From Phocaeicola sartorii JCM 17136 = DSM 21941 (GTDB lineage: Bacteria; Bacteroidota; Bacteroidia; Bacteroidales; Bacteroidaceae), in assembly GCF_000614185.1 (NCBI RefSeq), contig NZ_BAKM01000006.1, positions 62,001-126,000 on the forward strand: a stretch of 64,000 nt of DNA. Direction: 5' to 3'. Positions 2,481-42,806 of this stretch are shown here, piece by piece (the first letter of the stretch is position 1; the number at the start of each line of letters is the position of its first letter). Under the pieces are notes generated by a model, which saw nothing but the letters and a program-made list of their open reading frames with translations, was not told the DNA's origin and did not search any database. A program made the position numbers and the translations under genes.

Positions 2481-2485
2481 AGAAA

Positions 2486-3790: not shown

Positions 3791-3818
3791 AATTTAAAGG
3801 GTTGTTATAAACAGTCGG

Positions 3819-3826: not shown

Positions 3827-3922
3827 CATAATTTATTTGAAAATAACACGTGTGCCTTGATAAAAGAGTCGTGCCGTCCGCATATAAAGCCTGCACCGAT
3901 ATAAATTATTTTTTCAGATCAT

Positions 3923-4747
3923 TCAAGGCAGCATTTGGATTTTGTCGTATTCTTCGTCGGTTACGGGTGCCAGCCATTCATTGGATGTGTTTTCTCCGGA
4001 AAGTTCGAATGCGAGGTGTGCGAACCAACTGTCGGCTGCTGCACCGTGCCAATGTTTTACGTTGGCAGGAATATGGATCACTGTGCCGGGAAGGATCGCT
4101 ACAGCAGCTTTTCCTTCCTCTTGGTACCAGCCACGACCGGCGACGCCAATAAGCATTTGCCCGCCACCTTGAGTTGCGTGGTGGATATGCCAGTTGTTGC
4201 GACAGCGTGGTTCAAAGGTGACATTGGATATGTTCACCTGTTCACGTGAGATGGGGGCGAGGTAACTGTTGCCGGTGAAATATGCTGCATAAGCGGTGTT
4301 GGGTTCTCCGACAGGAAAAATCATTTCGCGTTGGAATCTGGCTTTCTCATCTTTACCGGAGGTTTCTTCGTTCCATACTTCTTTGGCAAGGCGGAATGCT
4401 GCCCATGCTTTCGGCCATCCTGCATAGAAGCCGATGTGGGTGATGATCTCTGCAATTTCCGTACGCGTAATGCCGTTGTTCTTGGCTGATTGGAGATGGA
4501 ATGTGAGCGAGCTGTCCGTTATCCCTTGACTGATGAGTGAGGTGATTGTAACCAAACTGCGGTCACGAAGACCGAGTTGATCGGTGCGGCTCCATACTTC
4601 TCCAAAAAGAATGTCGTCATTAAGTTCCGCGAATTTAGGAGCGAATGTTCCCAATTGGTCGCGTCCTGCTGTCTGTTTGATTTTTTCTTGCGCCATACTG
4701 GTTGTTGTTAAAATACTGAATGTTAAAAGTAAAATGATTTTGTTCAT
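3923..4747 (-). CDS. Exported carboxymuconolactone decarboxylase-like / cupin two-domain protein
   Basis: A 274-residue protein starting at the ATG at 4747, with a signal peptide ending near TTTSMAQ. Residues about 35-125 resemble the CMD/AhpD alpha-helical fold (FGEVWSRTDQLGLRDRSLV, then HIGFYAGWPKAWAAF), but no CxxC thiol pair is present. Residues about 165-250 form a cupin domain with metal-type His pairs in NNWHIHHA and the second cupin motif in PGTVIHIPANVKHWHG. This fusion is known in Bacteroidota and often annotated as a cupin or quercetinase-like protein; the real substrate is unknown. An upstream in-frame ATG at 4801 is less likely because it would put charged residues before the signal peptide. 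It is a single gene with its own promoter-like TACTTTTG. Confidence 0.75.
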   Translation of the reverse strand: MNKIILLLTFSILTTTSMAQEKIKQTAGRDQLGTFAPKFAELNDDILFGEVWSRTDQLGLRDRSLVTITSLISQGITDSSLTFHLQSAKNNGITRTEIAEIITHIGFYAGWPKAWAAFRLAKEVWNEETSGKDEKARFQREMIFPVGEPNTAYAAYFTGNSYLAPISREQVNISNVTFEPRCRNNWHIHHATQGGGQMLIGVAGRGWYQEEGKAAVAILPGTVIHIPANVKHWHGAAADSWFAHLAFELSGENTSNEWLAPVTDEEYDKIQMLP

Positions 4748-4782
4748 AGTGTTTATCTTTTCAAATCTTTTAATTCTATGTA

Positions 4783-4790
4783 CAAAAGTA
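4783..4790 (-). promoter_or_regulatory. -7 element of the CMD-cupin gene
   Basis: TACTTTTG on the minus strand, 36 bp upstream of the chosen ATG at 4747. It lies inside the alternative longer ORF, which supports the shorter start. Confidence 0.5.
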
Positions 4791-4983
4791 TGGAATTGCA
4801 AGAAATGGCATAGTACCCGGATTACAGATTCTTATACCATTTTTCCTGTTTTATTCGTTGTGCTGTTTAAAATGAAATTCCATTGTCATCCGGCTAAGTT
4901 TTCAATCAGGAGATAGAAAACAAGGTTTTGAACCGGATAACAATGGAATTCAATGCTCTTTGATATAAAACGAGTATAGATGA

Positions 4984-7607: not shown

Positions 7608-8718
7608 ATGACAGCAAATACCCCCAAACGATTGCTTGCTCTTGACATTTTGAGAGGCATCACTATTGCAGGCATGATTCTTGTGAATAACCCCGGTTCA
7701 TGGGGTTATGTATATACTCCTCTGGAGCATGCCGCCTTTAACGGATTGACCCCCACCGATCTTGTTTTCCCTTTTTTTATGTTCATTATGGGAATATCCA
7801 CTTATATCTCTTTGCGGAAATATAATTTTACTTATTCCCATGCTACGTTACGGAAGATTGTGAAACGTACAGTCGTTATTTTTTGTATCGGTCTGTTTCT
7901 GAATCTTTTGGCCAAGTCGGTTTTTGCACATCATCTGAATTTTGAGGAATGGCGCTATTTGGGAGTCATGCAGCGGCTTGCTATAGGATACGGCGTGACC
8001 AGTCTGGTTGCTATAACGGTGAGGCATAAATATTTTCCCGTTATCATTTTGGTGACTTTGGCCGCTTATTTTCTTTTATTGGCTGCGGGAGACGGCTTCA
8101 ACCTGTCGGAAACCAATATTGTGGCCCGTTTTGATGCATGGGCATTGGGTACATCCCACATGTATCATGAGGGAGGAATGGCGTTTGACCCGGAAGGACT
8201 GTTGAGTACGGTTCCTGCGGTGTGTCATGTCATGGTAGGGTTTTATTGTGGAAAGTTATTGCTTTCTGCTAAAGATAATGGCGAGAAGATACAGCGGTTG
8301 TTTTTGGTGGGCACTATACTCACATTTGCCGGCTTTTTGTTAAGTTACGGCTGTCCCATCAATAAGAAAGTGTGGTCGCCTACTTTTGTCATCACAACTT
8401 GCGGGCTGGCATCCAGCTTTTTGGCTTTGCTTATCTGGATCATTGATATGAAAGGCTATCAGATGGTGCACTTTTTTCCGGTCGTTCGGAGTGAACCCTT
8501 TGTTTATCTATGTGTTTGCGGAAATAATGGGGATTGTATTGGGCGCTACAGGAGCAAGCACTTTTATTTACGAAAAGGTGCTGGCTCCGGTGCTGGGAAA
8601 TTATCCCGGCTCGTTGGCATACGCTTTGTTATATATTATATTTTGTTGGAGTATTGTGCATATTTTATACAAAAAAAGGTATTTATGTCAAGATCTAGAA
8701 ACGGAAACAGAAAATTAG
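7608..8718 (+). CDS. NagX-like membrane acyltransferase (HGSNAT/DUF5009 type), frameshifted
   Basis: After correction, 369 residues of a polytopic membrane protein related to heparan-alpha-glucosaminide N-acetyltransferase and NagX. It begins with RLLALDILRGITIAGMILVNNPG, the characteristic opening of this acyltransferase group, followed by FPFFMFIMGISTYIS and about ten membrane helices. The last part (MNPLFIYVFAEIMG onward) sits in another frame because a run of six T at 8472-8477 should be five, giving HFFRSFGVNPLF. As written the frame continues to 8726 with an unrelated tail. It is divergent from the GH20 hexosaminidase, so a role in amino-sugar acetylation or uptake is plausible but inferred. 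The ECF sigma gene starts 4 bp after the corrected stop. Confidence 0.85.
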
Positions 8719-8722
8719 TTAG

Positions 8723-9282
8723 ATGAAAGAAACGAAGAATGTTTTTATGTCAGAACTGACGGAGGTGTTTAATAAACGTCAGCAACAGTTTATTCAGTTT
8801 GCCTGCTCATACGTCAGAGACAGGGAAGAGGCTGAGGATATTGTAATGGGGGCTTTTACTAATGTGTGGGAGCACCGGAATGAATTACAGGAAGATACCA
8901 ATATTTCCGCGTTGCTGTTGACTGCCATAAAAATCGTTCGTTGAATCATTTACAACATTTGGAGGTACGTATGCGTGCCGAGCAGCATATAGGAGATATG
9001 CGGCAGAAAGAGCTGGCTTTGCGTATCTCGACTTTGGAGGCCTGTGATCCCGACAAATTGTTTTGTGATGAGATTCAGGCTTTGGTACAGGAAGCCATCA
9101 GCGAACTGCCTCCTACAAGCAGGGAGGTGTTTGTCTTGAGCCGGATGAAGAATATGCCAAACAAGGAAATTGCTTTGCAACTGGATCTTTCTGTAAAGAC
9201 TGTGGAATTTCATATTACCCGGTCGCTGAAACAGTTGCGGGTACGGCTGAAGGATTATCAGTTTCTTTGGAGCTTTTTATAA
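8723..9282 (+). CDS. ECF RNA polymerase sigma factor, frameshifted
   Basis: About 186 residues when corrected. Region 2 is visible in FIQFACSYVRDREEAEDIVMGAF and region 4 in LPPTSREVFVLSRMKNMPNKEIA followed by the helix-turn-helix LSVKTVEFHITRSLKQLRVRL. The two halves lie in different frames: the A run at 8929-8933 has five A where six give TAIKNRSLNHL. As written, translation stops after residue 73. A second possible start is the ATG at 8747. No anti-sigma gene is adjacent; the upstream neighbour is the NagX-like gene, with which it is probably co-transcribed, and the next feature is a terminator. Its regulon cannot be inferred here. Confidence 0.85.
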
Positions 9283-9339
9283 GGACTGTTTTTCTGTTTT
9301 CAGGGGTGGCGCAAAATGATTGCGGAATCATAAAAAAAT

Positions 9340-9368
9340 AGGGCGACGCTTTCTTCTTAGCGTGCCCT
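9340..9368. terminator. Hairpin terminator after the ECF sigma gene
   Basis: AGGGCGACGCT pairs with AGCGTGCCCT around an 8-base loop. It lies between the sigma gene and the convergent FadL-like gene, preceded by A7, so it can act in both directions. Confidence 0.65.
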
Positions 9369-9391
9369 GAATTTGTTTTGTATGTTAAGGA

Positions 9392-10762
9392 TCAGAAACT
9401 ATAATCCGCACTTAAACCGAACACTTTGTTAGTACGGCTGTATACGTTTGTTCCTGGTAATTTGGTTCCGTTATAGTTTGAAGATGTTTTGGTATAATCT
9501 TCATAATTAGTCCACATGTAGCCTACATTCAAATTGAGATGTTGGTTCATTTTTACTTTCGCTCCGAATCCTAAAGTGTAAGAGTCGCAAGAGAAACTAG
9601 TATCTGATTGGAAACCATCAGACAACCCATAATCTGTAATTTGTCCACCGCAACTGAGAGTCAGCTGTTTGGTTACATCAAATTCGATACCTGCCAGATA
9701 TTCATTGGTTCCTTTGGTCAGGAATTTCTGCTTGTCGTTTGCCATACCTGCATTTTTGTCATCATAGAAATGGTATTCTACAGAAGCGCGCAGTACCGGA
9801 AGGAATTCGTAGGCGGCTGCAATGGAGAACATGGCTGGGATGTCATTGGGGGTGTTTACACCGTGTTTGTAGGGAGCTACCATGTCTTCGGCAGTAGAGG
9901 GATAATCTAATTTGTGGGTGTTGTTTTCAATATTCAGATTCGTCTTGAAATCGTATTTGGCACCGATGTTAAGTTTTCCTAGCTTGGCATCCACGCCGAT
10001 AACAGGAGTAAGCCCCCAACCTGTCTGGTCGCAATCCAAGGCGAGTGGCAACAGATTGGTATCGGTTCCTTTCACTATGGCATTCAGAAATCCTTTATAA
10101 CCACCTGTAAAATAGTTCATGCGGCCTCCGCCGAATACAGAAAGCCATTCGGTGGCTTTGTAGGATAACCCTAGCTGCAACGAGTAGATGTATTGTTTAC
10201 CGTCCATGGCGCTTGTGATATCGTACATGTTGGGAGTCATTATCGGCCTCTGCCCTTGGGACTCTTGGTATTTTTCCACACTGCTTTGGAAGATACCTGC
10301 CATGGCCGAGGCATCGAATATAGGCAATCCGTCGTCAAAAGACGCTTTTCCACCTCCGGCGGTAATTGCAAAAAAGCCCGAAATAGTCCAATCTCCTTTT
10401 TTATAGGCTGCGAACAGACTGGGGATAACCGGTGCGGAAGCTGTTCCTTCATAATATTTTTCGAAAGGTTTGTCTGCCACGGTAGGACCTGTGGCGCTAA
10501 CACCGCTGTATGTCATAAAGCTGGCATCAATATTTCTCGTCTGGTAAGCACTTTGAATGCTCAGTCCTACATGGAATCCGTCTTTGGGCAAGAAAGACAG
10601 TCCGGCAGGATTAGACAAAGCACCATCTATTTCTGTAGTAGCACCACGGGATAGCATACGAAGAAAAGCTGCATGTTGATTTGTATTGGTCAGGATACCT
10701 CCTGCGAAAGTTGAATTTGAAACGATTAGCGTCGCTGCGCCAATGAATAATAGTTTCTTCAT
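9392..10762 (-). CDS. OmpP1/FadL-family outer-membrane transporter
   Basis: A 456-residue outer-membrane beta-barrel related to FadL/TodX, which transports long-chain fatty acids or other hydrophobic molecules by lateral diffusion. A signal peptide (MKKLLFIGAATLIVSNSTFA) is followed directly by GGILTNTNQHAAFLRMLSRGA and the SNPAGLSFLP segment typical of the N-terminal hatch of this family. Many aromatic-capped beta strands follow and the last residues (FGLSADYSF) end in Phe, the usual barrel sorting signal. The gene is intact. It is transcribed alone from a canonical promoter (10792-10822). The real substrate is unknown. Confidence 0.88.
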   Translation of the reverse strand: MKKLLFIGAATLIVSNSTFAGGILTNTNQHAAFLRMLSRGATTEIDGALSNPAGLSFLPKDGFHVGLSIQSAYQTRNIDASFMTYSGVSATGPTVADKPFEKYYEGTASAPVIPSLFAAYKKGDWTISGFFAITAGGGKASFDDGLPIFDASAMAGIFQSSVEKYQESQGQRPIMTPNMYDITSAMDGKQYIYSLQLGLSYKATEWLSVFGGGRMNYFTGGYKGFLNAIVKGTDTNLLPLALDCDQTGWGLTPVIGVDAKLGKLNIGAKYDFKTNLNIENNTHKLDYPSTAEDMVAPYKHGVNTPNDIPAMFSIAAAYEFLPVLRASVEYHFYDDKNAGMANDKQKFLTKGTNEYLAGIEFDVTKQLTLSCGGQITDYGLSDGFQSDTSFSCDSYTLGFGAKVKMNQHLNLNVGYMWTNYEDYTKTSSNYNGTKLPGTNVYSRTNKVFGLSADYSF

Positions 10763-10791
10763 TTATTACTTGATTTTTTTGTTTGCGGGCG

Positions 10792-10822
10792 CAAAGGTAG
10801 GATAAAATAACACACGGACAAA
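10792..10822 (-). promoter_or_regulatory. Canonical Bacteroides promoter of the FadL-like gene
   Basis: On the minus strand, TTTG (10819-10822) is followed after 19 bp by TACCTTTG (10792-10799). Both elements and the spacing match the -33/-7 consensus. Confidence 0.7.
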
Positions 10823-11105
10823 CCTTTTGTGCAATTATTTGTGTGATCTATTGAAAAAATCAACTGTTTCAATGGAAACTATTTGCCTGGGTGCTGAATA
10901 TTCTTTTAAAAGCTTTTGTGATTGTACGAGTTGTGGAATGAGGGGGAGGATCTGGTGATCAGACTTTGGGGTAAAATGATTTGTTTTCTATGTTATCCAC
11001 TTTTTTCTGATACATTTGTTCCGGAACACCTGTCCGCTAAATAAATTCTTTGTCTGTTTACGGATTCTTCACTCCATTCAGAGTATGGGATTGAAAAGAA
11101 TATAG
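10823..11105. other. Intergenic stretch between divergent promoters
   Basis: I see no gene, repeat or stable hairpin here. It separates the FadL-like promoter from the MATE promoter. Confidence 0.5.
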
Positions 11106-11142: not shown

Positions 11143-12465
11143 ATGTACACCAACAAAGAAATATGGAATGTAAGTTATCCGATCTTTCTCGGACTATTGG
11201 CGCAAAACATTATCAATGTGACGGATACGGCTTTTCTGGGCAGGGTAGGAGAAGTTGAGTTGGGAGCTTCCGCCATGGGCGGGTTGTTTTACATCTGTGT
11301 CTTCACCATTGCTTTCGGTTTTAGTATCGGTTCGCAAATTCTGATTGCCCGTCGCAATGGAGAAGGCCGTTACAAGGATGTGGGTCCCGTGATGATACAA
11401 GGGGGAACATTCTTGTTAGGACTGGCGGTGGTGCTGTTCGGGCTGACGCGTCTGCTGGCCCCGTCTATAGTCCGTCTGCTCATTTCGTCCGATTCCATCT
11501 TCGATGCTACGATGGAATTCCTCAACTGGCGTATCTTCGGCTTTTTCTTCGCTTTTGTCAATGTGATGTTCCGTGCGTTGTATATTGGTATCACACGTAC
11601 TAAAGTGCTGACCATGAATGCAGTGGTCATGGCATTGGTGAATGTGTTGCTGGATTATATGCTGATATTCGGTAAGTTCGGAATGCCGGAAATGGGGATT
11701 AAGGGTGCGGCCGTCGCTTCGGTGATGGCTGAGGCTGCTTCGTTGGTTTTCTTTTTGATTTACACCTACGCCAAGGTCGATTTCAAGAAATTCGGATTAA
11801 ATCATTGGCAGCGGATTGATTTTTCTTTGTTAGGAAGAATTTTGAGTATATCGTGCTTTACTATGGTGCAATACTTTCTGGCCATGGCTACCTGGTTTGT
11901 CTTTTTTATCGCGATAGAACGGTTGGGGCAGCGTGAGCTGGCGATAGCCAATATTGTGCGTAGCATCTATATCGTGATGCTCATTCCGGTTCAGGCATTG
12001 TCTACCACAGCCAATTCCTTGGTCAGCAATCTGATTGGTGCGGGAGGAATAGCTCATGTCATGCGTTTGATTTGGCGTATAGCCCGGATGTCGTTTCTCA
12101 TTATGGTGGTTTGTGTGGCGGTGGTGGTGCTTTTCCCTCATGCCATGCTTTCGGTTTACACCAATGAACCGGCGCTGCTGGTGGAGTCTGTGCCTTCGTT
12201 GTATGTCATTGCCGGAGCGATGATGATTGCATCGGTGGCGAATATCTATTTCAACGCCATTTCGGGCACGGGGAACACACAGGCTGCTTTGGTGCTGGAG
12301 ATGGGAACTTTGGTATTCTATACCCTTTACATTCTGTGGATAGGCATGGTGGTGAAAGCACCGGTTTCGGTTTGTTTCTCCATAGAGGTGGTTTACTATA
12401 GTTTGTTGTTACTGAGCAGCATTATTTATTTGAAAAAAGCAAAATGGCAGAATAAAAAGTTATAA
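11143..12465 (+). CDS. MATE-family efflux transporter
   Basis: A 440-residue polytopic membrane protein with twelve predicted helices in two similar halves. The opening YPIFLGLLAQNIINVTDTAFLG is the conserved first MatE segment (P-x-x-L/G-Q-N-x-x-N-x-x-D-T-x-x-x-G), and the second half repeats the pattern (SISCFTMVQYFLAMATWFVFF). MATE proteins exchange Na+ or H+ for cationic drugs or metabolites across the inner membrane. It is complete, with its own promoter and close spacing (about 100 bp) to ffh, which also has its own promoter. The substrate cannot be deduced. Confidence 0.92.
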   Translation: MYTNKEIWNVSYPIFLGLLAQNIINVTDTAFLGRVGEVELGASAMGGLFYICVFTIAFGFSIGSQILIARRNGEGRYKDVGPVMIQGGTFLLGLAVVLFGLTRLLAPSIVRLLISSDSIFDATMEFLNWRIFGFFFAFVNVMFRALYIGITRTKVLTMNAVVMALVNVLLDYMLIFGKFGMPEMGIKGAAVASVMAEAASLVFFLIYTYAKVDFKKFGLNHWQRIDFSLLGRILSISCFTMVQYFLAMATWFVFFIAIERLGQRELAIANIVRSIYIVMLIPVQALSTTANSLVSNLIGAGGIAHVMRLIWRIARMSFLIMVVCVAVVVLFPHAMLSVYTNEPALLVESVPSLYVIAGAMMIASVANIYFNAISGTGNTQAALVLEMGTLVFYTLYILWIGMVVKAPVSVCFSIEVVYYSLLLLSSIIYLKKAKWQNKKL

Positions 12466-12482
12466 GGTTCATAAGTTTTTTG

Positions 12483-12490
12483 TATTTTTG
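12483..12490 (+). promoter_or_regulatory. -7 element of ffh
   Basis: TATTTTTG, exact TAnnTTTG match, 73 bp upstream of the ffh ATG. Confidence 0.5.
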
Positions 12491-12563
12491 CACCCTGTTG
12501 TTATTCTGGATACTGGTGAGGGATAGCAGACAATCATAATTCGTAATTTATAATGAAAGATAT

Positions 12564-32811: not shown

Positions 32812-32885
32812 GTGACTATAGTTCAGTCGGTTAGAGCGTCAGATTGTGGTTCTGAATGTCGTGGGTTCGAATCCCACTAGTCACC
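32812..32885 (+). tRNA. tRNA-His (GTG)
   Basis: Full cloverleaf: acceptor GTGACTA / TAGTCAC, anticodon arm TCAGA-TTGTGGT-TCTGA with anticodon GTG, T arm GTGGG-TTCGAAT-CCCAC. The encoded G just before the acceptor stem (32811) faces discriminator C73, the G-1:C73 pair specific to tRNA-His. Confidence 0.97.
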
Positions 32886-32896
32886 CTACCCCTATG

Positions 32897-32933
32897 AAAG
32901 GTTCTGTAAATCTAATGATTTATAGGACCTTTT
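32897..32933 (+). terminator. Terminator of tRNA-His
   Basis: AAAGGTtCTgTAAAT pairs imperfectly with ATTTATAGgACCTTT and continues into a run of T. Confidence 0.65.
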
Positions 32934-32964
32934 TTTATTTTCTGTACCTGTTTGTGCAATTGTC

Positions 32965-33531
32965 ATGACGATAAATTTAAACGATAATGGCGAAAGAGAT
33001 AAATATATCTTGGAGTTGTTCCGGACATCTCCTAAGGAGGCTTTTCGTTTATTATTTGATACTTATCACATGAAATTGTGCATATATGCAGTGCAACTGA
33101 CCGACTCTTTTGAAATGGCGGAAGATATAGTGCAGGATTTTTTCATCTATTTCTGGGAGAAGAAATATTATTTGAAAATAAATCAAAATCTTCGTTATTA
33201 TCTTTATTTGTCTGTGCGGAATGCGGCCGTCAATGCTTTGCAGAAAAATAACATGTTGTCTATGGAGGAACTCTCGGGCATTGATATGACTATTCCGGAG
33301 GAATCTATAGATGAAGAGGAGCAAGAGGAGCAAAATAAGTTATTATTGGAAAAACTACAGAAATTATCTCATCAGGAACTACAAGTGGTGAGAGCTGTCA
33401 TTATGGAAAATAAGAAATATAAAGAGGCGGCTGAGGAACTCCATATATCTGTGAATACTTTAAAGACTCATCTGGCGAGAGCGTTGAAGAAACTAAGAGA
33501 AGGATACAATTTGTACGCGCTGTTTTATTAA
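32965..33531 (+). CDS. ECF RNA polymerase sigma factor of the SusC/D-TlpA unit
   Basis: A 188-residue sigma-70-family factor. Region 2 is seen in AFRLLFDTYHMKLCIYAVQL and MAEDIVQDFFIYFWEKK; region 4 in LSHQELQVVRAVIMENKKYK with helix-turn-helix HISVNTLKTHLARALKKLRE. An acidic linker (ESIDEEEQEEQ) separates them. It is followed after 71 bp by a FecR-type anti-sigma gene and then a SusC with an STN domain, the classical arrangement for trans-envelope signalling, in which substrate binding at the receptor frees the sigma factor to transcribe the receptor operon. It is intact. Confidence 0.93.
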   Translation: MTINLNDNGERDKYILELFRTSPKEAFRLLFDTYHMKLCIYAVQLTDSFEMAEDIVQDFFIYFWEKKYYLKINQNLRYYLYLSVRNAAVNALQKNNMLSMEELSGIDMTIPEESIDEEEQEEQNKLLLEKLQKLSHQELQVVRAVIMENKKYKEAAEELHISVNTLKTHLARALKKLREGYNLYALFY

Positions 33532-33602
33532 AATTAAAATTCTTTTCCTTTTTTGTCACCCGTTTATTAAAAATGGCTCTCTTTCATTAAACGAAAGTGA
33601 TA

Positions 33603-34682
33603 ATGGATAAAGAGAATCAAAAAAAGAATAAAAAGTATTTTGAATATTATATAGTGCAGCGAAAGGAAGAATTTCGTTGCCGATATGATCACGAACGGTC
33701 GTGGGAAGCCTTGCAATGCAAGCTTCAAAAGAGAAGAAAACGCCGGATCGGCCTGTATTGTGTAACAGCGTCGGCAGCCCTTTTTATTCTGGTTTTAGGA
33801 ATTAGTCATATATTCTCTCTTCACAATAACACACAAAACAAAGATGCCGTAGTGGCTGCTGTAGTTTCATTTCCGGAAACAGGCAGCCGCAAGGCTATTC
33901 TTACTTTGGAGAATGGAGAAAAAGTGGACTTGTCGGTTAAAAAAGGTACGATTTCTAATGAAAGTTCTACGATCATTAATAATAATTCCAATCAATTATT
34001 GACTTATAAAAAAGTGGAAGAGGTTTCTTCAACTCCTCAGATGAATACATTGGCTGTCCCTAGAGGTGGGGAATATCAGTTGATTTTATCGGACGGAACA
34101 AGGATATGGATGAATGCTGAGAGTTTTTTGCGTTATCCTGCTTCTTTCGTTGGGGAGAAAAGAGAAGTGTTTCTGGAAGGGGAAGCTTTTTTTGAAGTGG
34201 CAAAAGATACTGAGCATCCCTTTGTCGTTCATACAAACAGACATTCAGTGGAGGTGCTGGGTACAAGTTTTAATATTTCTGCTTATCCTGACTATAAGGT
34301 ATATACAACTCTTGAAGAAGGGCGCGTTAAAGTCAGTACGGCTAAGGCATCGGTCGTGTTAAATCCAGATCAACAAGCAGTTATTGAGCCGGATAATGAT
34401 GATATAGTGACACGTGATGTGCCTGCTTACCTGTTTACTTCCTGGGCGAAGGGGAATTACGAATTTCGTAATACGTCTTTGGCTGAGATTGTCGCCCAGC
34501 TGTCACGGTGGTATAATGTGGATATCTATTTTAAAAATGAATCTTTAAAAAATAAGAGATTTGCAGGTATCATTTTCAGGGAGGAAGAACTGAGCTTTGC
34601 CATTGAAGTGATAGAAAGAGTCTCTAATGTGCATTTTACCCGTGATGGGGAAACTATTTACATTGAAGATAAGCACGAATAA
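33603..34682 (+). CDS. FecR-type anti-sigma factor
   Basis: A 359-residue inner-membrane protein. The cytoplasmic N-terminus (about 1-48) would bind the ECF sigma factor; a membrane helix follows near residues 49-68 (LYCVTASAALFILVLGI). The periplasmic FecR domain starts near MNTLAVPRGGEYQLILSDGT and contains ASFVGEKREVFLEGEAFFEV and VLGTSFNISAYPDY; the C-terminal DUF4974-like domain (FRNTSLAEIVAQLSRWYNVD) would contact the STN domain of SusC. I use the ATG at 33603, six bases after an in-frame GTG. It is paired with the upstream sigma gene. Confidence 0.93.
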   Translation: MDKENQKKNKKYFEYYIVQRKEEFRCRYDHERSWEALQCKLQKRRKRRIGLYCVTASAALFILVLGISHIFSLHNNTQNKDAVVAAVVSFPETGSRKAILTLENGEKVDLSVKKGTISNESSTIINNNSNQLLTYKKVEEVSSTPQMNTLAVPRGGEYQLILSDGTRIWMNAESFLRYPASFVGEKREVFLEGEAFFEVAKDTEHPFVVHTNRHSVEVLGTSFNISAYPDYKVYTTLEEGRVKVSTAKASVVLNPDQQAVIEPDNDDIVTRDVPAYLFTSWAKGNYEFRNTSLAEIVAQLSRWYNVDIYFKNESLKNKRFAGIIFREEELSFAIEVIERVSNVHFTRDGETIYIEDKHE

Positions 34683-34782
34683 GAAAGCAGCATGATAGGA
34701 GAGAATTGACTTTTTTAATAATAAATCAACAAACAATTATGAGTACAAAACTTTTGAGCGAAACTATTTGTCGCAAAGGCTC

Positions 34783-37700
34783 ATGGTGAAATGCTTTGTT
34801 GCATTGATCGTATTCTTTTGTTCGGTGGGTGATGCGTTTGCCCAGGCTGATACTAAAGTGACTGTCAATGTGAACAGTGTTTTAATCAGAACTGCCTTGG
34901 ATCAACTGCAAAGGGAGGCAAAGATCCATTTTGTTTATGATGAAGAGAATATTGATTCAGGAAAACGGGTGAGTTTATCTTATACTCAAACCCCTCTGAA
35001 CGTGGTTCTGGATGATTTTTGTAAACAGACCTCGTTGCGGTATGAAGTAAAAAGAAACTTGATTCTTATTTTACCAGCAAAAGCGGAGAAAAAGACCGGA
35101 AAGCATGAACCTTTTTATATGACGGGCGTGGTTACGGATGAAACCGGAGAAAGTATCATTGGAGCTACCATAATGATTGGAGGTACAAGCCAGGGTACGG
35201 TGACCGATATAGACGGCCGGTATAGCTTGCAGGTTACTCCCGGCGATTTGGTGTCATTTACTTTTGTCGGAATGGCGGATAAAGTAGTCAAGGCGCAAGC
35301 TGGCAAGAAAGTGGTGAATGTGAAGATGGAGACAAATGCCACTGCATTGGCGGATGTTGTAGTAACTGGTTATCAGACGTTGTCTAAAGAACGTGCGACA
35401 GGTTCTTATTCTGTCATTTCAGAAAAAAGTACGAAGGGTAAACTGGAAACAGATGTGTTGTCACGTATTGAAGGTCTGGTAGCGGGTATCAATAAAACTT
35501 CCAGTAACAGCAGTGATGTCGTTATTCGTGGTATTACTACTTATATGGGAAATACAAAGCCACTGTATGTAGTTGATGGTATGCCTTATGAAGGTGATTT
35601 GGCATCCATAAATCCTACTGATGTGCAAAATATAACCGTATTGAAGGACGCTGCTGCAAGTTCTATTTATGGTGCCCGTGCTGCTAATGGAGTAATTGTT
35701 ATTACAACCAAGCGCGGACAGGAAGGTAAAACTAAAGTGAGCTATAATGGTAGTGTCAAGTTGTCACCGAAGCCGGATTTTGATTATTTGAACTTGATGA
35801 GTAGTTCTGAATTGGTGGATATGCAGATTGAGGGATTTGATTATTATCATACGGCTTATGAGAATCTGAATAAACGTCGGGCTGTAAATCAGGTAGTTGA
35901 TTTGTTATATCAGCATGAACAAGGTCAGCTGACGGATGGTCAATTGGCAGATGCTTTGTTGCCTTATCGCACCAATGATAACCGTAAACAAATAGAAGAT
36001 GAATTTGCGCGTGTAGGTATTGTTCATCAGCATAATTTGGCTGTTTCTGGTGGTTCTAATAAAAATCGGTATATGGCTACTATTAATTATATGGGTGATT
36101 ATGGTAATCAAAAGTACCAAAGTAAAGATCGTATTGGCTTTAGCTTAAAAGATGATGTGGATTTCTTTAATTGGCTATCGGCTGATTTCGGGGTGACAGG
36201 AAGCTTTTATCGTTCAAAAGGTGATAATGGAGCAGGCAGTTATAGCAGTTTGATGAGCAGTTATCCTAGTTATTATATGTTGAGAGACTTACAAGGTAAT
36301 CCACTAAGTTTCCAACGTACTAAATCAGATTATGAATTGCAACGTTTGCAAAGTATAGGTTTGATGGATGAAACATATAGCCCGATAACGAACCGTGCAG
36401 AAGAAAGTTATCATAATAATTCTAATTATTATCGTTTGCATGCAGGGTTGAAATTTAAAATAATAGAAGGTCTTAATCTTGATTTGAAATATCAGACTGA
36501 AGGAACGTATGATAAAAATCGGACTTTGTATAGTAATATGTCATATACAGTACGTAATATGATAAATGATGCAGCTCAATATGATGCGGCAACAGGAAGT
36601 CTTACACTGAATGTTCCTAAGGGTGGCCAGTTGGGTGAGAGCCGTTACGAATCTTATTCATATACAATGCGTGCTCAAGTGAACTTTAATCGTGCATTTG
36701 GAAAACATGCTATATCAGCGTTGGGCGGTGCTGAACGTCGGTTGGTGCGTCGTACCGGTGCGAAGAATTATTATATGGGATATGATGATAATAGTCTGGG
36801 AGTAAAACCTATAAATCCGTTGGTTATGTCTCCTATTAATGGAACTGAGGCTTTGCTGGGATCATTTAATTGGGTTTATGGTGAATATAATTCATTGACT
36901 CATACGGAAGATCGATATGTTTCTTTCTATGCTAATGGTTCATATACATTTGACGAACGTTATTCACTGACAGGAAGTATTCGTATTGATCAATCTAACT
37001 TGTTTGGTACTGATCCTAAGTATCAGTATCGTCCGTTATGGTCTGTTGGTGGTGGTTGGCAAATTGCTAACGAGGCTTTTATGGAAGATTGTACGTGGCT
37101 GAATCGTTTGAATTTGCGTATTACTTATGGTGTGGGCGGTAATGTACCTAAGGATGCAGGACCGTATATGACTGTGGTTGACAGCGGATATAATGATTGG
37201 GTAGGAGATTTTGGCTCGTACATAAAGAATCCGCCTAACTCTCAGCTTCGTTGGGAAAAAACGGCTTCTACCAATATAGGGCTTGATTTTTCTGTATTCA
37301 ATTCTCGTTTAGGTGGTAGCATTGATTATTATTATAAGAAAACGACGGACTTGTTAGGAAATCGTAATGCGGATCCGACTTTGGGCTGGGCAAGTTTATT
37401 GCAAAATTATGGTTCGATGTTCAATAGAGGCGTGGAATTGTCGTTACAGAGTGTAAATATTCAAAATAAGAATTTTACTTGGGGCACTAATTTAATGTTC
37501 AGTTATAATAAAAATGAACTGACCAATTTGGAAGGTACAAGAGAAACTGTTTTTTATTATAGTGCATATAATGTAGCTGCAGTGGGATATCCTATAAATA
37601 GTGTATTCAGCTATCGTTATGCGGGACTTGATCCGGAAAATGGAAATGTGCTGGTCTATAATAAGGAAGGAGAAAAAGTTTCAAAAATAAGTTCTATTGA

Positions 37701-38232
37701 TGATATGGTATATTCTGGTACTCGTACTCCCAAATATACAGCGTCATTGAAAAATTTCTTCTCTTATCGTGATTTTGATTTTTCATTCATGTTTGTATAT
37801 TATGGCGGTCATGTATTGCGCGATGTCGTAGCTGGATATATGAGTGGTGCACCGAGCGCAAATCTTACTCGTAAGGCTTTAAATCATTGGAGGAAGCCGG
37901 GGGATGAAAATATTCCGGGAGTGGCTCCGTCTTTCAATAGGAATATTTATTATACAGACGCTCAGGCATGGTATTCGGCAGATACGCATGTAAAGAAAGC
38001 AGACTATATCAAATTGAGAGATATTTCATTGAGTTACAATTTGCCGAAGAATTGGTTGAGGAAATATTTTATAGAGTCGGCTGCTGTGACTTGTCAAATC
38101 AGTAATGCGTGGTGGTGGGCTGCTAATGGAGATATTGATCCGGAAGCATATACTACATCTGGGTATGGATGGGGATCCTTGACTCTTCCGAATCCTACTA
38201 CTTATACAATTGGTTTGTCTCTTAATTTTTAA
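34783..38232 (+). CDS. SusC-type TonB-dependent receptor with STN signalling domain
   Basis: About 1149 residues from the ATG at 34783, which gives a signal peptide ending VGDAFAQ. An STN (secretin/TonB short N-terminal) domain (about 25-90; VLIRTALDQLQREAKIHFVY, TPLNVVLDDFCKQTSL) would talk to the FecR partner. Then come a carboxypeptidase-like domain (MTGVVTDETGESIIGATIMI), a plug (DVVVTGYQTLSKERATGSYS, VVDGMPYEGDLASINP, AAASSIYGARAANGVIVITT) and a barrel ending TTYTIGLSLNF. The true start may be the ATG at 34739: adding one G to GG at 34778-34779 joins MSTKLLSETICRKG to LMVKCF. This gene looks AT-richer than its neighbours by eye. Confidence 0.95.
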   Translation: MVKCFVALIVFFCSVGDAFAQADTKVTVNVNSVLIRTALDQLQREAKIHFVYDEENIDSGKRVSLSYTQTPLNVVLDDFCKQTSLRYEVKRNLILILPAKAEKKTGKHEPFYMTGVVTDETGESIIGATIMIGGTSQGTVTDIDGRYSLQVTPGDLVSFTFVGMADKVVKAQAGKKVVNVKMETNATALADVVVTGYQTLSKERATGSYSVISEKSTKGKLETDVLSRIEGLVAGINKTSSNSSDVVIRGITTYMGNTKPLYVVDGMPYEGDLASINPTDVQNITVLKDAAASSIYGARAANGVIVITTKRGQEGKTKVSYNGSVKLSPKPDFDYLNLMSSSELVDMQIEGFDYYHTAYENLNKRRAVNQVVDLLYQHEQGQLTDGQLADALLPYRTNDNRKQIEDEFARVGIVHQHNLAVSGGSNKNRYMATINYMGDYGNQKYQSKDRIGFSLKDDVDFFNWLSADFGVTGSFYRSKGDNGAGSYSSLMSSYPSYYMLRDLQGNPLSFQRTKSDYELQRLQSIGLMDETYSPITNRAEESYHNNSNYYRLHAGLKFKIIEGLNLDLKYQTEGTYDKNRTLYSNMSYTVRNMINDAAQYDAATGSLTLNVPKGGQLGESRYESYSYTMRAQVNFNRAFGKHAISALGGAERRLVRRTGAKNYYMGYDDNSLGVKPINPLVMSPINGTEALLGSFNWVYGEYNSLTHTEDRYVSFYANGSYTFDERYSLTGSIRIDQSNLFGTDPKYQYRPLWSVGGGWQIANEAFMEDCTWLNRLNLRITYGVGGNVPKDAGPYMTVVDSGYNDWVGDFGSYIKNPPNSQLRWEKTASTNIGLDFSVFNSRLGGSIDYYYKKTTDLLGNRNADPTLGWASLLQNYGSMFNRGVELSLQSVNIQNKNFTWGTNLMFSYNKNELTNLEGTRETVFYYSAYNVAAVGYPINSVFSYRYAGLDPENGNVLVYNKEGEKVSKISSIDDMVYSGTRTPKYTASLKNFFSYRDFDFSFMFVYYGGHVLRDVVAGYMSGAPSANLTRKALNHWRKPGDENIPGVAPSFNRNIYYTDAQAWYSADTHVKKADYIKLRDISLSYNLPKNWLRKYFIESAAVTCQISNAWWWAANGDIDPEAYTTSGYGWGSLTLPNPTTYTIGLSLNF

Positions 38233-38250
38233 ATGATTAAATAGATAAAT

Positions 38251-39642
38251 ATGAAATTATATAAATTTTTACTTTGTGCATGCCTGGCGTTGTCTGTAAT
38301 GTCATGTGATGATTATTTGGATATACAGCCCAAAGGGATTGTAATTCCGGAAAAGAGTGAAGACTATGAACGTTTATTGAACTATGCTCAATTGCTGAAA
38401 GCTTCAGAGTCATATCCTAATTTTATGACAGATGATGTTTTTATGCCTTATGATGATGATATGACAGGAGGATTTATTTCTCTAGGGTTGCCGGATCAGC
38501 ATTTATATGCGTTTAATAGTGAAATCTTTGGAGAGGGAGAAAGTGACGGTCTTTGGGAATATTCCTATAATCGTATTTACTATTACAATGTAGTTATTGA
38601 TGATATAATGGGGGCTACTCAAGATACTGAAGAACATAAAAAGCAATTGAGGGCTGAAGCTTTGGTTGGACGTGCTTTTGAATATTTGACTTTGGTCAAT
38701 GCTTACGCCAATCATTACGATCCGTCGACTGCCGCTACAGATCCTGGAGTTCCATTGATGCTGGATAAGAATATCAATAAAACAAATCTGCAGCGTGCCA
38801 CAGTGCAGGAAGTGTATGATCAAATTAAGGCAGATTTGGATGAGGCTGCTCCTAATTTACCGGAAAAACCTGTGTTGAATGCCTATCGTGCATCTAAGCC
38901 GGTGGGCTACGGGATGTTGGCACGTATGTATCTTTATATGGGAGATTACAAAAAAGCGTTGGAGAATGCGGTAATCTCATTACAGAATAATTCAACTTTG
39001 ATGAGTCTTTTCCCTTATAAAGTAGTGGATCGTGATAAATACATTGGTAGAATTGACGTTCCGGATGGAGATGAGAATCCGGAAAATATTTATATTCGTT
39101 TGGCTCCATGGACTTTTGGATTCAGTGCTACTGCGTATGCATCTGAAGAATTGGCGTCTTTGTACGATCAGGAAAAGGACCAGCGTTACCTGTTGTATTT
39201 TACGAAATATTTAGGTGGAATAGATTTGGATTATCCTCTTTGGGCTCCTTATATTTATGCAAATATGGCTATGTCTACTCCGGAAATGTATTTGATAGCA
39301 GCCGAGTGTGAAGCCCGTATAGGTAGTAAAGACAAGGCTATGGAATATATTAATACCTTGCGCGATAACCGTATTATTGATAATGTACCTTTGGTTGCGA
39401 GTGATAACAAGGATGCATTGGTAAAAGTGCTGGAGGAGAGAAGACGGGAGATGCCTATGCTGGGTTGCACCCGCTTGATTGACTTGAAACGTTTGAATCG
39501 TGAGCCTGAATTTGCAAAGACTATTGTGCATGAGGTGAATGGTGTGGAATATAAATTGGAGCCTAACAGCCCTAAATATATTCTGCCTATTCCGCCTACA
39601 GTGCTTCGTTTTAATCCTGATATGGTTCCTAATATAAGATAA
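38251..39642 (+). CDS. SusD/RagB-type outer-membrane lipoprotein
   Basis: A 463-residue lipoprotein (lipobox LSVMSC, Cys about residue 19; DDYLDIQPKG follows) that would cap the preceding SusC barrel. TPR-like helices are visible (AEALVGRAFEYLTLVNAYAN, GMLARMYLYMGDYKKALENA) and the C-terminal family segment EERRREMPMLGCTRLIDLKR, then YILPIPPTVLRFNPDM. It is shorter than the PUL1 SusD and intact. It lies 18 bp after susC and 11 bp before the first thioredoxin-like gene, so it belongs to the same operon. The ligand is unknown; no glycosidase is linked. Confidence 0.94.
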   Translation: MKLYKFLLCACLALSVMSCDDYLDIQPKGIVIPEKSEDYERLLNYAQLLKASESYPNFMTDDVFMPYDDDMTGGFISLGLPDQHLYAFNSEIFGEGESDGLWEYSYNRIYYYNVVIDDIMGATQDTEEHKKQLRAEALVGRAFEYLTLVNAYANHYDPSTAATDPGVPLMLDKNINKTNLQRATVQEVYDQIKADLDEAAPNLPEKPVLNAYRASKPVGYGMLARMYLYMGDYKKALENAVISLQNNSTLMSLFPYKVVDRDKYIGRIDVPDGDENPENIYIRLAPWTFGFSATAYASEELASLYDQEKDQRYLLYFTKYLGGIDLDYPLWAPYIYANMAMSTPEMYLIAAECEARIGSKDKAMEYINTLRDNRIIDNVPLVASDNKDALVKVLEERRREMPMLGCTRLIDLKRLNREPEFAKTIVHEVNGVEYKLEPNSPKYILPIPPTVLRFNPDMVPNIR

Positions 39643-39653
39643 AAGATATTTTA

Positions 39654-41033
39654 ATGAAAAAACTAACAAGTATGATGGCAACAGCAGCATTATGCTGTTG
39701 CCTGGGTTCCTGCAACAGTGGAACTAAGCAAGAAGTGGAGAATACGGTACATATCAAAGGCCAGCTGATGGATATGGGTAGCCAGAATGTGCGTATGCGA
39801 TTTGACGGAGCGGCATCTATGGTGGGCGACAGCCGGGACATTTTGTTGGAAACGGATGCTGCCGGTTATTTTGATACTACTTTTGTACTGAAAGAGCCGA
39901 CATATTACAGCATCAGTCGCAACACATTGTATCTTACTCCAGGGGATGATATGACTATCAAAGTAACTCAGTCAAATACTGAAGCGGAATTTTCAGGAAA
40001 AGGCGCTGAAGCTAATAATTACATGAAGTTCCGTCTTTTCCCGAAAGGGGGATCTTACTTGGAAGGCGGCGGTAACTTACGTGGAGATTTTGTTTCTACT
40101 AAAGCATTGGTTGACAGCTTGGCCGCTATACGTATGCATACATTGGATACGTTGAGTAATGTATCCGGTTTATTTAAAAAGCTGGAAACAGCACGGATCA
40201 AGGCGGATGTGATCAATAGCTATATCTGTTATGCTAGTTATTCAAGGATGTTTGCCGACATAAAAACTGAAGAAGAGATGCAGGCTAAATGGAATGAGTT
40301 TAATGTTTCGTTGACACCGGAGGTAGCTCCGTTGTATAAGGAAATTATGGATGAGAATATGTTGGATGTGGCTGTAGTACGCGATGTCCTTTCTTATCAG
40401 GAAGATTCCACACTGACTTCTCTTTGGTTCAAAGACATTTCCATTCCTGCGCGTACCACAGAACTGTATGCTTGTGCTAAAATCGTAGGCGATTTACGCG
40501 ATGAAGTTTCGGAACAGACGGTGGACAAGGCGAAGGCATTTTTGCAAACAGTGAAGAATGCCGATTTCGCAACAGAAGTGGAAGGAAAGATTGTTCAGGC
40601 TTCCAAGTTGCTTCCCGGACAACCTGCATTTGATTTTGAGATGGAGGACGTGGAAGGCAATGTGAAACATCTTGCGGATTTCAAGGGCAAGGTGATTTAT
40701 ATTGATTTATGGGCGACTTGGTGCGGTCCTTGTATTCAGGAGTCTCCGGCGTTCGAGGCTTTAGGAAAGAAATATGCGGGTAAGGATATTGTTTTTCTTC
40801 CGGTTTCCACAGATACTACTACGAAGCCTTGGCTAGGATACCTGGATGCACATAAGAAAGAGTTGACTCAGTATCATTCCAATGACGTGGCTTTAAAAGA
40901 AAGCTGGGCCATCATGTATATTCCTCGTTTTATCTTGATAGACAAGGATTTCAATATTGTGAATGCATACGCTCCACGTCCGTCAAGTGAAGAGATTAGT
41001 CCTTTGATCGATTCTGTTCTTAATAAACAGTAA
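39654..41033 (+). CDS. TlpA-type thioredoxin-like lipoprotein (DUF4369-like plus AhpC/TSA)
   Basis: A 459-residue lipoprotein (lipobox CLGSC, Cys about residue 22). The N-terminal beta domain (about 30-130, VHIKGQLMDMGSQNVRMRFD) looks like DUF4369, followed by a helical linker and a C-terminal thioredoxin fold (about 315-455) with WATWCGPCIQESPAFEAL near residue 355, VIYIDLW before it and a cis-Pro in MYIPRFILIDKD. The CGPC pair indicates a working thiol-disulfide oxidoreductase at the envelope, probably a reductase. It follows the SusC/D pair directly, so it may reduce or release a captured substrate or maintain thiols of the importer. Confidence 0.9.
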   Translation: MKKLTSMMATAALCCCLGSCNSGTKQEVENTVHIKGQLMDMGSQNVRMRFDGAASMVGDSRDILLETDAAGYFDTTFVLKEPTYYSISRNTLYLTPGDDMTIKVTQSNTEAEFSGKGAEANNYMKFRLFPKGGSYLEGGGNLRGDFVSTKALVDSLAAIRMHTLDTLSNVSGLFKKLETARIKADVINSYICYASYSRMFADIKTEEEMQAKWNEFNVSLTPEVAPLYKEIMDENMLDVAVVRDVLSYQEDSTLTSLWFKDISIPARTTELYACAKIVGDLRDEVSEQTVDKAKAFLQTVKNADFATEVEGKIVQASKLLPGQPAFDFEMEDVEGNVKHLADFKGKVIYIDLWATWCGPCIQESPAFEALGKKYAGKDIVFLPVSTDTTTKPWLGYLDAHKKELTQYHSNDVALKESWAIMYIPRFILIDKDFNIVNAYAPRPSSEEISPLIDSVLNKQ

Positions 41034-41037
41034 ATTT

Positions 41038-42216
41038 ATGATTGATAAGAAATATTTGTTATTAGGCGTTTCTCTATGCATGTTAAATGCTTGTAATGAG
41101 CCTAAGTCTGTGACTTTAGAGGGCAGTCTGGATGGAATCCAGACTGATTCCATCTATCTGTATCAAGTAAACAATGAGCATTATGGTAATGTGAAACTGA
41201 TTGAGTCCATTGCCGTTACCGATGGTAAATTTGTTTATCCCGCTGATTCTATAGAAACCGGTCTTTATTGTTTCTCTTTGCAGAATATGGAGCGTGGAGA
41301 GTATTTACAACAATATGCCAACTTGTTTTTAGAACCCAAGTCCATGCAACTGACTCTTGGCAAGGACAAATATGAACATCTGAGTTTGCATGCTACTGGT
41401 TCTGCATTACAGGAACAATATGAGGCCTTACAAAAAGCGAAATATGTAGCTGGAAATCGTGCTGTTCTCGACTCTTTGGATAATATGTTCTATGAAGCCC
41501 GTGAAAAGGGAGACCAAAAAGAAATGGAGCGTATCCGGGAGGTTTCCATGCCCTATTATGACAGTGCTTCGGAACAGACCCGTAAATTGATCAGTGAGGA
41601 AATTGATAAAAATAAGGGTTCATACTTCGGTTTGTATCTGTATTACACCTATCGTTTCCAGAATCATACTTTTAATACAGTAGAGGAGATTGATGAGGTG
41701 CGTAACTTCATTGGTGGTTTTGACGAGACTTCCAAGCAGAGTAGCATGTATGCCAAAATGCAAGAAGGTTTGGATAAACTTGCCCAGTGTGCTGTTGGCA
41801 GTGCCGCTCCTGCTATAACCGGTATTGATTTGGAGGGAAATACTGTCAGTCTGAGCGATTTTAAAGGCAAATATGTATTGGTGGATTTTTGGTTTGCAGG
41901 CTGTCATTGGTGCCGTTTGGAAACTCCTTATTTATTGAAGACATACAATGCTTTTAAAGATAAGGGATTCACTATTTATGGTGTGTCAACGGACCGTCGT
42001 GAGGAAGACTGGAAAAAGGCCATTGAAGAAGACAAGAGTTATTGGAACCAGGTCCTCTTGCAGAAGGATGACGTAAAGAAGGTGTTGGAAACCTACTGTA
42101 TTGTTGGTTTCCCACATATTATTTTAGTAGATCCGGAAGGTAAGATCGTAGCGAAGGAGTTGCGTGGAGATGATCTTTATAATACCGTTGAGAAGTTTGT
42201 AAACGGAGCAGAATAA
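41038..42216 (+). CDS. TlpA-type thioredoxin-like lipoprotein with CHWC active site
   Basis: A 392-residue lipoprotein (lipobox MLNAC, Cys about residue 19) with the same plan as its upstream neighbour: a DUF4369-like N-domain (VTLEGSLDGIQTDSIYLYQV), a helical middle and a thioredoxin fold (about 255-390). The active site is WFAGCHWCRLETPYLLKTYN near residue 288, so the dipeptide between the cysteines is His-Trp rather than Gly-Pro; the cis-Pro is in IVGFPHIILVDPEG. A different dipeptide implies a different redox potential, so the pair may form a relay or act on different substrates. The gap to the first TlpA gene is 4 bp. A terminator follows. Confidence 0.88.
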   Translation: MIDKKYLLLGVSLCMLNACNEPKSVTLEGSLDGIQTDSIYLYQVNNEHYGNVKLIESIAVTDGKFVYPADSIETGLYCFSLQNMERGEYLQQYANLFLEPKSMQLTLGKDKYEHLSLHATGSALQEQYEALQKAKYVAGNRAVLDSLDNMFYEAREKGDQKEMERIREVSMPYYDSASEQTRKLISEEIDKNKGSYFGLYLYYTYRFQNHTFNTVEEIDEVRNFIGGFDETSKQSSMYAKMQEGLDKLAQCAVGSAAPAITGIDLEGNTVSLSDFKGKYVLVDFWFAGCHWCRLETPYLLKTYNAFKDKGFTIYGVSTDRREEDWKKAIEEDKSYWNQVLLQKDDVKKVLETYCIVGFPHIILVDPEGKIVAKELRGDDLYNTVEKFVNGAE

Positions 42217-42241
42217 GGAAATGTGTTTTTAAACGAGTGGA

Positions 42242-42277
42242 ACAGCAGGTTGGGGAATGTCCAGCCTGCTGTTTTTT
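42242..42277 (+). terminator. Terminator of the ECF/SusCD/TlpA operon
   Basis: ACAGCAGGTTGG pairs with CCAGCCTGCTGT (one G-U), seven-base loop, six T at the end. Textbook intrinsic terminator. Confidence 0.85.
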
Positions 42278-42416
42278 CTTTTATGGAATGTGAGTTTCTT
42301 GAGGGGAGGATATTCCTTTATTGCAGATAATGATGCATCGTGGTTTTGTTGTATTCATTTTTTATAGATCTAATGTGTGACCTGTATTTCTTTAATCTTT
42401 TCCTTTTGAAGAACAT

Positions 42417-42450
42417 TTTGCCTGTCGGATAGGTTAAAAGATTATCTTTG
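42417..42450 (+). promoter_or_regulatory. Promoter of the candidate small RNA
   Basis: TATCTTTG at 42443-42450 matches the -7 consensus exactly; TTTG at 42417-42420 is a possible -33 element with a 22-bp spacer, slightly long. Confidence 0.55.
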
Positions 42451-42456
42451 TACTAT

Positions 42457-42652
42457 TATTTAAAAAGAAAGACATTGGCAGAAATAAACATAAAAGACTA
42501 AAACGTATAGGTATTGTAAGCGTACAATACTTTTGGCGGTCTCGTTGGATGCTTGTGTTCAGATTTAAGACGAGGCCACCTTATTCTCGTAGAGAATTTA
42601 GATTTTAATTTGGATGATACCTGCTCGTGATGAGTAGGTATCATTTGTTTTT
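42457..42652 (+). ncRNA. Candidate structured small RNA, about 195 nt
   Basis: This non-coding stretch has a promoter upstream and an excellent terminator at its end. After an A-rich 5' part (to about 42510) come hairpin GTATTGTA-AGCG-TACAATAC (42511-42530), a longer hairpin pairing GGCGGTCTCGT (about 42535-42545) with ACGAGGCCACC (about 42570-42580) with one mismatch, and the small hairpin ATTCTC-GTA-GAGAAT (about 42583-42597). The terminator stem ATGATACCTGCTC / GAGTAGGTATCAT (42614-42644) runs into TTGTTTTTC. I do not recognise tmRNA, SRP RNA, RNase P RNA or 6S RNA features. The transcription start is estimated from the -7 element. Confidence 0.6.
42614..42644 (+). terminator. Intrinsic terminator of the candidate small RNA
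   Basis: 13-bp stem with a single G-U pair and a five-base loop GTGAT, then TTGTTTTT. Confidence 0.8.
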
Positions 42653-42798
42653 CAGCCTGTCCTGTTATGGAAATGGTATCCGTGATAATATAAAAGGAAA
42701 GCCAAGAAATATTTCGGCAGATTTCATGTTATTTATTGAATAAAACAAGTAAAAGAAAGATTCTTTTCTGTTTAATGTAACAGTTTACTTTAAATTCT
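42653..42798. other. Intergenic spacer between the small RNA and pabB
   Basis: AT-rich sequence; no ORF, repeat or convincing hairpin seen. Confidence 0.4.
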
Positions 42799-42806
42799 TA
42801 ACTTTG
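42799..42806 (+). promoter_or_regulatory. -7 element of pabB
   Basis: TAACTTTG, exact TAnnTTTG match, 44 bp before the pabB ATG. Confidence 0.5.

Follow-up and report, generated by a model that had tools for sequence, protein, structure and literature searches.

To our knowledge, most of what is known about riboregulation in gut Bacteroidota comes from Bacteroides thetaiotaomicron. For Phocaeicola vulgatus, neither a small RNA (sRNA) map nor a transcript map was among the matches listed in a search of open-licence literature. In the sections of the reports considered here, the precedents for an intergenic trans-acting sRNA are GibS (PMC7366714) and FopS (PMC11697453) of B. thetaiotaomicron. 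GibS is 145 nt long as printed and carries a highly conserved single-stranded 5′ seed (PMC7366714). The FopS sRNAs, which repress SusC mRNAs, are ~65–70 nt long, comprise 14 members in B. thetaiotaomicron and have a 5′ seed (PMC11697453).

We analyzed a stretch of 64 kb, hereafter the window, taken from a 5.29-Mb draft genome (G000) of the same genus as P. vulgatus ATCC 8482 (taken to be genome G011). A candidate sRNA locus was located at 42443–42652, between a nutrient-uptake gene cluster and the folate gene pabB, and the presumed RNA measures ~198 nt from its −7 box to its terminator. Like GibS, it is intergenic, similar in length and built of hairpins followed by a terminator, whereas the 5′ seed of GibS is described as conserved in the sections considered (PMC7366714) and the 5′ end of our RNA is its least conserved part. 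With the FopS family it shares a promoter of the sigma-ABfr type, a Bacteroidota PUL context and a terminator. It differs from the FopS sRNAs, as far as the consulted sections describe them, in length (~198 nt versus 65–70 nt, although a processed shorter form is possible), in copy number (single copy versus several paralogues per genome) and in its 5′ end, which holds the R1′ seed in FopS but is not conserved between our three copies. BatR and MasB, intergenic sRNAs of B. thetaiotaomicron to which the consulted sections assign cell-surface or stress roles (PMC10861873; PMC10994844), belong to the same phylum and are likened to our RNA by description only.

On balance, and with modest confidence, we read the locus as an independent, intergenic, PUL-linked sRNA gene of ~198 nt that is narrowly conserved and would act by trans base-pairing. 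At the level of sequence comparison, the anatomy of an independent gene, the conservation of its body and its occurrence in the same genomes as the final gene of the upstream operon are established. An earlier interpretation made from the letters of the window (the sequence-only reading) was upheld in this independent gene anatomy and not in the target pairing that it assigned to the A-rich 5′ end. We regard the locus as a credible sRNA candidate that is absent from Rfam and of an ordinary kind, and the view of sRNAs as such would stay unchanged. The finding places a candidate RNA beside an accessory uptake operon and provides a defined single-copy locus in the type strain P. vulgatus ATCC 8482 that is amenable to deletion, northern blotting and target capture.

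Anatomy of the locus between the uptake operon and pabB

The genes upstream of the locus form a linked block on the plus strand (32965–42216) encoding an ECF sigma factor, FecR, SusC, SusD and two thioredoxin/TlpA-like proteins, as assigned by Pfam. The sRNA gene would be carried together with this ECF-sigma/FecR-controlled SusCD-TlpA nutrient-uptake operon. A tRNA gene (32812–32885) lies directly ahead of the operon start (window 32812–32965); tRNA genes are sites at which islands commonly insert. Behind the second TlpA-like gene, whose 3′ end is at 42216, a terminator scan detected the operon's own terminator (stem 42239–42275 and a T-rich tail), about 165–205 bp ahead of the sRNA −7 box. 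On the other side, pabB, which encodes a chorismate-binding domain (Pfam), begins with an ATG at 42851 and has its own TAnnTTTG at 42799–42806, 44 nt ahead of the ATG.

These elements bear out the earlier description of a free-standing gene apart from its neighbours, with its own −7 box and terminator and a separate box for pabB. The separation from pabB is also seen in P. vulgatus ATCC 8482 and in another genome of the genus, G041, where a 19-kb PUL block lies between them. It is improbable that the locus is no independent gene and represents a piece of the 3′ end of the TlpA operon mRNA or an unexpressed relic. Such a reading would suit the co-occurrence with the last operon gene and the fact that the sRNA is known here from sequence alone, but the operon has its own terminator ahead of the −7 box, and the core of the RNA is far better conserved than both flanks.

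The Bacteroides −7 box is TAnnTTTG. An exact match, TATCTTTG, is present at 42443–42450 on the plus strand, as the sequence-only reading had stated, and the element is retained in all three genomes that carry the RNA (TATCTTTG in two and TACCTTTG in the third). TAnnTTTG occurs 46 times on the plus strand of the window, giving a chance of ~4% for one per 60-nt stretch. Thus, the box by itself is weak evidence, but it is kept in all three genomes. The −33 element is unconvincing, since the TTTTG stops 22 nt ahead of the −7 box and is not conserved across the three copies. No E. coli-type sigma-70 site was detected at the locus (0 versus 2.9 expected), which agrees with what a Bacteroides-type promoter would predict. 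Transcription would start from this housekeeping-type TAnnTTTG promoter and end at the intrinsic terminator.

Ahead of the −7 box, the block CTGTCGGATARGTTAAAAG (42422–42440, plus strand) is the same in the three genomes except for R and is a possible activator site. It is the sole copy in the window at up to 3 mismatches, and a 17-nt part of it has no second exact copy in G000, G011 or G041. A regulon sharing this block was not seen; near matches were no commoner than in the reversed control.

The region 42455–42652 folds with −54.5 kcal/mol (z −4.57; none of 200 shuffles as good). Together with the exact TATCTTTG and the terminator scan, this confirms the observation of a locus with a promoter box, hairpins and a terminator. 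The presumed RNA begins with an A-rich, poorly conserved 5′ tail (42455–42500), its start at ~42455–42457 being placed from the −7 box. It continues as a conserved body, the core (42501–42652; pairwise identities of 95.4%, 94.8% and 94.1% among the three copies). Within the body, the predicted structure comprises hairpin 1 (42509–42532; 10 bp with an AGCG loop), hairpin 2 (42535–42580; a long stem with the invariant loop region GGATGCTTGTGTTCAGATTTAAG) and hairpin 3 (42583–42597; 6 bp, weak, invariant in the three sequences). These are followed by the linker TTAGATTTTAATTT (42598–42611), which is invariant in the three sequences and predicted to be partly to largely unpaired. All lie on the plus strand. 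The hairpins and terminator would give the RNA stability.

The z-score of the core fold is −5.6 in the window, −6.0 in G041 and −5.0 in G011. Without the terminator it falls to −2.8 (5 of 300 shuffles as good), −3.6 (0 of 300) and −1.9 (14 of 300), respectively, indicating that the terminator carries much of the fold signal and that the remainder of the body is only moderately significant. All 45 pairs hold in the three sequences (135/135 cells) and no pair is broken; a substitution affects one side of seven pairs, and no pair has changed on both sides. As only three sequences are available, this pattern fits the structure but cannot prove it. A joint absence of compensatory changes and of conservation in related genomes had been named as one outcome that would tell against the candidate; of the two, only the compensatory changes were absent (0/45), the core being ~95% identical in two relatives.

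The intrinsic terminator (42612–42652, plus strand) consists of 15 bp and a T-run, agreeing with the textbook terminator described earlier. It was detected by the terminator scan (stem 42611–42647) and by folding, and is retained in all three genomes. Terminator-like sites numbered 3 versus 0.4 expected on both strands of an 801-base region, and one of them is the end of the upstream operon. A terminator with the GATACC/GGTATC stem was found at only 4 places, in three of four genomes, and thus is not a mass repeat. Terminator hairpins with a (C/T)GTGA loop recur in the window (42612–42652) and at L053, L059, L064 and L067, loci matched by the model described below, and the recurrence may reflect model selection. 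The motif CYYGTGAWRRG occurs 3 times in the window versus 0.94 expected, with no clear excess (8 of 100 shuffles reach 3).

The locus had also been said to contain no open frame, which does not hold strictly. A 19-codon ATG frame (42549–42608, plus strand; MLVFRFKTRPPYSRREFRF) is open in all three genomes, overlaps hairpins 2 and 3 and is probably not translated. If it were, the locus would be a small mRNA, alone or with a dual function, for a 19-residue basic peptide, MLVFRFK(T/A)R(P/S)PYSRREFRF. We consider this very improbable, even with a frame intact from ATG to TAA in every copy. Its three variable codons comprise two amino-acid changes and one silent change, while nearby four-fold sites are only ~66% identical; with two of three variable codons changing the amino acid, the pattern is not that of a conserved peptide. 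Moreover, the start codon is inside hairpin 2, and the conserved region exceeds the frame on both sides.

Conservation of the body and distribution among relatives

We searched 100 genomes with the region 42417–42652 by blastn. Full-length copies were found in the own genome, G041 (91%) and G011 (86%). Eight of the 100 relatives matched at E up to 0.001, and five of these did so only through 32–60-nt pieces in the initial 85 nt of the query, its promoter and tail part, and were excluded from the copy count. Two covariance models were used, R1 for the RNA core including the terminator and R2 for the body without it. Among 61 genomes of the genus, R1 gave three full copies at 197–203 bits and ≤46 bits elsewhere; at E up to 0.1 it matched 5 of the 61, namely the three full copies, G046 (45.6 bits) and G047 (20.3 bits). 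In the family, 13 of 399 genomes had an R1 match at E up to 0.01, three being the full copies, and among 295 order genomes R1 matched 8 at E up to 0.1 including the own genome, of which the other seven (≤30.3 bits) were dropped.

R2 at E up to 0.05 detected only the three known copies in the 399 family genomes, with a single copy per genome, and at E up to 0.01 only the own copy in 395 phylum genomes; the wide covariance-model and blastn surveys used stricter filters, by which weak matches are lost. With these models, the 399 family and 395 phylum genomes gave no convincing relative beyond the three genomes. The sRNA is single copy in its own genome by both blastn and R2. Phages, plasmids and viral contigs gave no match to it, one of these searches being for an exact 26-mer only. 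In the consulted part of one report, 27 of 49 high-confidence intergenic sRNAs of B. thetaiotaomicron are called strain-specific (PMC7366714), and by that account a narrow distribution is ordinary for intergenic sRNAs.

The core (153 columns) is identical to the window at 146/153 positions in G041 and 145/153 in G011, and at 144/153 between G041 and G011. Identity to the window is lower in the upstream flank (42286–42416; 94/134 in G041 and 103/135 in G011, i.e., 70–76%) and at the four-fold sites in the neighbouring gene (80/120 in G041 and 79/121 in G011, ~66%). The core differs from the four-fold sites with a Fisher p of 3e-10 (G041), and from the flank with 5e-9 and 5e-6. Because the body is ~95% identical against lower values in flank and four-fold sites when the window is compared with G041 or G011, we read the pattern as purifying selection on a body that has no coding appearance. 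In the G041–G011 pair, the core is no slower than the four-fold sites (144/153 versus 129/137, p 1.0). G041 and G011 are 98.5% identical along a 28-kb alignment spanning the locus, and with three sequences in all there are few independent lineages.

The last operon gene (TlpA) has a full-length match in the same 3 of 61 genus genomes as the sRNA and in no others; another genome, G049, has a 310-base match of 69%. The co-occurrence has a p of 3e-5, or 1e-4 counting G049, with the genomes treated as independent, though they are related. G046, a genus genome that has the closest pabB (92%), is without the TlpA gene genome-wide, and neither the operon nor the RNA was found within 14.6 kb upstream of its pabB. 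From the linkage with the last TlpA gene and the absence of operon and RNA in G046, the sRNA is assigned to an accessory uptake region and not to the core genome.

Between the sRNA and pabB, G041 and G011 have a 19-kb block with a different PUL, which is missing in the window; alignments with L039–L042 break at window position 42676 and resume at 42733. The ORFs of this block encode a protein of 1316 residues, another SusC/SusD-like pair and additional secreted proteins, and from the ORF starts we read it as an HTCS/glycoside-hydrolase PUL. In both genomes, the sRNA gene is ~180 bp upstream of this PUL in the same direction. This position, and the resemblance of the structure and terminator to a leader, would fit a cis-acting leader or attenuator that is a remnant of the downstream PUL and whose terminator is read through on a signal. 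We give this little probability, since the PUL is absent beside the window copy and the core is still ~95% identical, the first gene of the PUL has its own TATCTTTG just ahead of its start, and the core folds contain no obvious anti-terminator.

At the DNA level, G011 has no alignment with G041 over most of susC, the whole of susD and the extreme 5′ end of the first TlpA gene (L041 about 1927–6483 versus L039). The second TlpA gene and the RNA do align. With aligned DNA on either side, the susC/susD gap looks like a specificity-module swap inside the operon.

Candidate pairing regions and the divergent 5′ tail

The A-rich 5′ end had been proposed as a target-pairing region. However, the tail (42456–42500) is the least conserved segment, with identities of 63% (window–G041), 39% (window–G011) and 50% (G041–G011), and is therefore ill suited to the role of a conserved seed. 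The invariant loop of hairpin 2 and the linker appear to be better seed candidates, and on the predicted fold the hairpin 2 loop is the best candidate for a pairing or protein-binding site. In the reading that we favour, an independent trans-acting sRNA, the hairpin 2 loop and/or the linker (42598–42611) would base-pair with mRNAs. By analogy with the FopS sRNAs of B. thetaiotaomicron, the targets would most likely be mRNAs of outer-membrane uptake systems. The A-rich tail may be a leader that the RNA can do without, or a site at which an RNA-binding protein is loaded.

We scanned four RNA segments against 100 start regions of the window, G041 and G011, taken from ORFs of 150 aa or more on both strands of the local loci without curation. 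None beat the best of 20 shuffles, and thus we name no target. This absence of a clear target among the tested start regions would also fit an RNA that works by titration instead of base-pairing, its hairpins binding a protein partner (an RRM protein or a ribonuclease), as would a conserved part that is mostly structured with loops invariant in the three sequences, and a free 5′ tail that is not conserved. By eye, however, the RNA has no repeated motif as in a multi-site sponge, and an occurrence in 3/61 genus and 3/399 family genomes would be unusual for a sponge that titrates a general protein. We consider such a protein-binding role doubtful.

Relative to four-fold sites, the tail is not faster in the window–G041 pair (29/46 versus 80/120, p 0.72), but is faster in window–G011 (18/46 versus 79/121, p 0.003) and G041–G011 (23/46 versus 129/137, p 2e-10). 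In 100-bp steps along 8001–11000 (G041 stretch coordinates), G041 and G011 mostly have 0–6 differences. The exceptions are the promoter-tail step with 32 differences and the two steps directly upstream of the promoter with 8 and 9; the step after the promoter-tail, mostly body, has 6. The same 6-kb comparison contains other divergent patches, with 16–22 differences per 100 at three steps within 12001–12500, and the promoter-tail is therefore not its sole divergent patch.

With 144/153 identical columns, the core diverges as much between G041 and G011 as between either of them and the window, suggesting that G041 or G011 carries an imported allele at the sRNA locus. Diversifying selection on the tail was not accepted, as one pair is not faster and allele exchange would also explain the G041–G011 pair. 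The tail may be either unconstrained or diversifying, and we lean towards the former. A modular PUL-linked sRNA, with a constant folded body and an interchangeable 5′ tail, is a conjecture to which we attach very little probability. Were targets set by the tails, the locus would amount to a specificity cassette whose alleles are swapped in step with the exchange of SusCD modules.

Resemblance to known families and other loci

The sequence-only reading had seen no resemblance to a housekeeping RNA, and we found none either. At Rfam 15 gathering scores, no family was detected at the sRNA locus, the window yielding only two tRNAs elsewhere, and nothing was detected in the loci of the two relatives (L060 and L061). 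Thus, the RNA is not a housekeeping RNA in Rfam. The GibS model (RF04182) reached 22.5 bits against a cut-off of 115, and the match was dropped, its aligned span (42580–42736) overrunning the terminator; this sub-threshold alignment places a hairpin internal to GibS opposite that of our terminator. A let-7 match at 42232–42281 (28.5 versus 53.5 bits) corresponds to the terminator hairpin of the TlpA operon, and a minus-strand match to the idnO motif (24.9 versus 100 bits, E 0.049) was judged to be chance.

BTnc231 (RF04180) scored 21.3 bits over 42578–42645 against a cut-off of 80.4, which we regard as background. At E up to 0.1, this model has matches in 58 of 61 genus genomes, of up to 47 bits and none above the cut-off, and the 21.3-bit match was therefore given no weight. 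The own genome has 6 of these matches (best 34.1 bits). In a control panel of 14 genomes, it matched 2 (Bacteroides ihuae and Lactococcus lactis), with 1 over the cut-off. The best BTnc231 matches (45–47 bits; G025, G029, G002 and G016) may be real distant relatives of that family.

A locus next to an S9-peptidase-like gene scored 39–46 bits with R1 in G000, G011, G041 and G046, and weaker R1 matches occurred elsewhere, the best being 41 bits in G041. R2 was near-silent at a set of loci matched by R1: L066 gave only 13.8 and 12.9 bits, the latter from the AGCG hairpin, and L057, L062, L064, L065, L059, L067 and L068 had no match at E up to 10. As R2 lacks the terminator, we take the R1 resemblance to be that of terminators, and second copies were rejected, even though an AGCG loop is also present in the S9-side hairpin. 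L070, picked through an R1 match, scored 26 bits with R2 but was absent at E up to 0.05 in the family-wide search, and was left as chance. At L057, L062, L065 and L066, the S9-peptidase-like gene, named from its ORF, has a conserved 3′ region with an AGCG-loop hairpin and a strong terminator. This region is possibly a 3′-UTR-derived RNA of its own, which does not imply kinship to our RNA.
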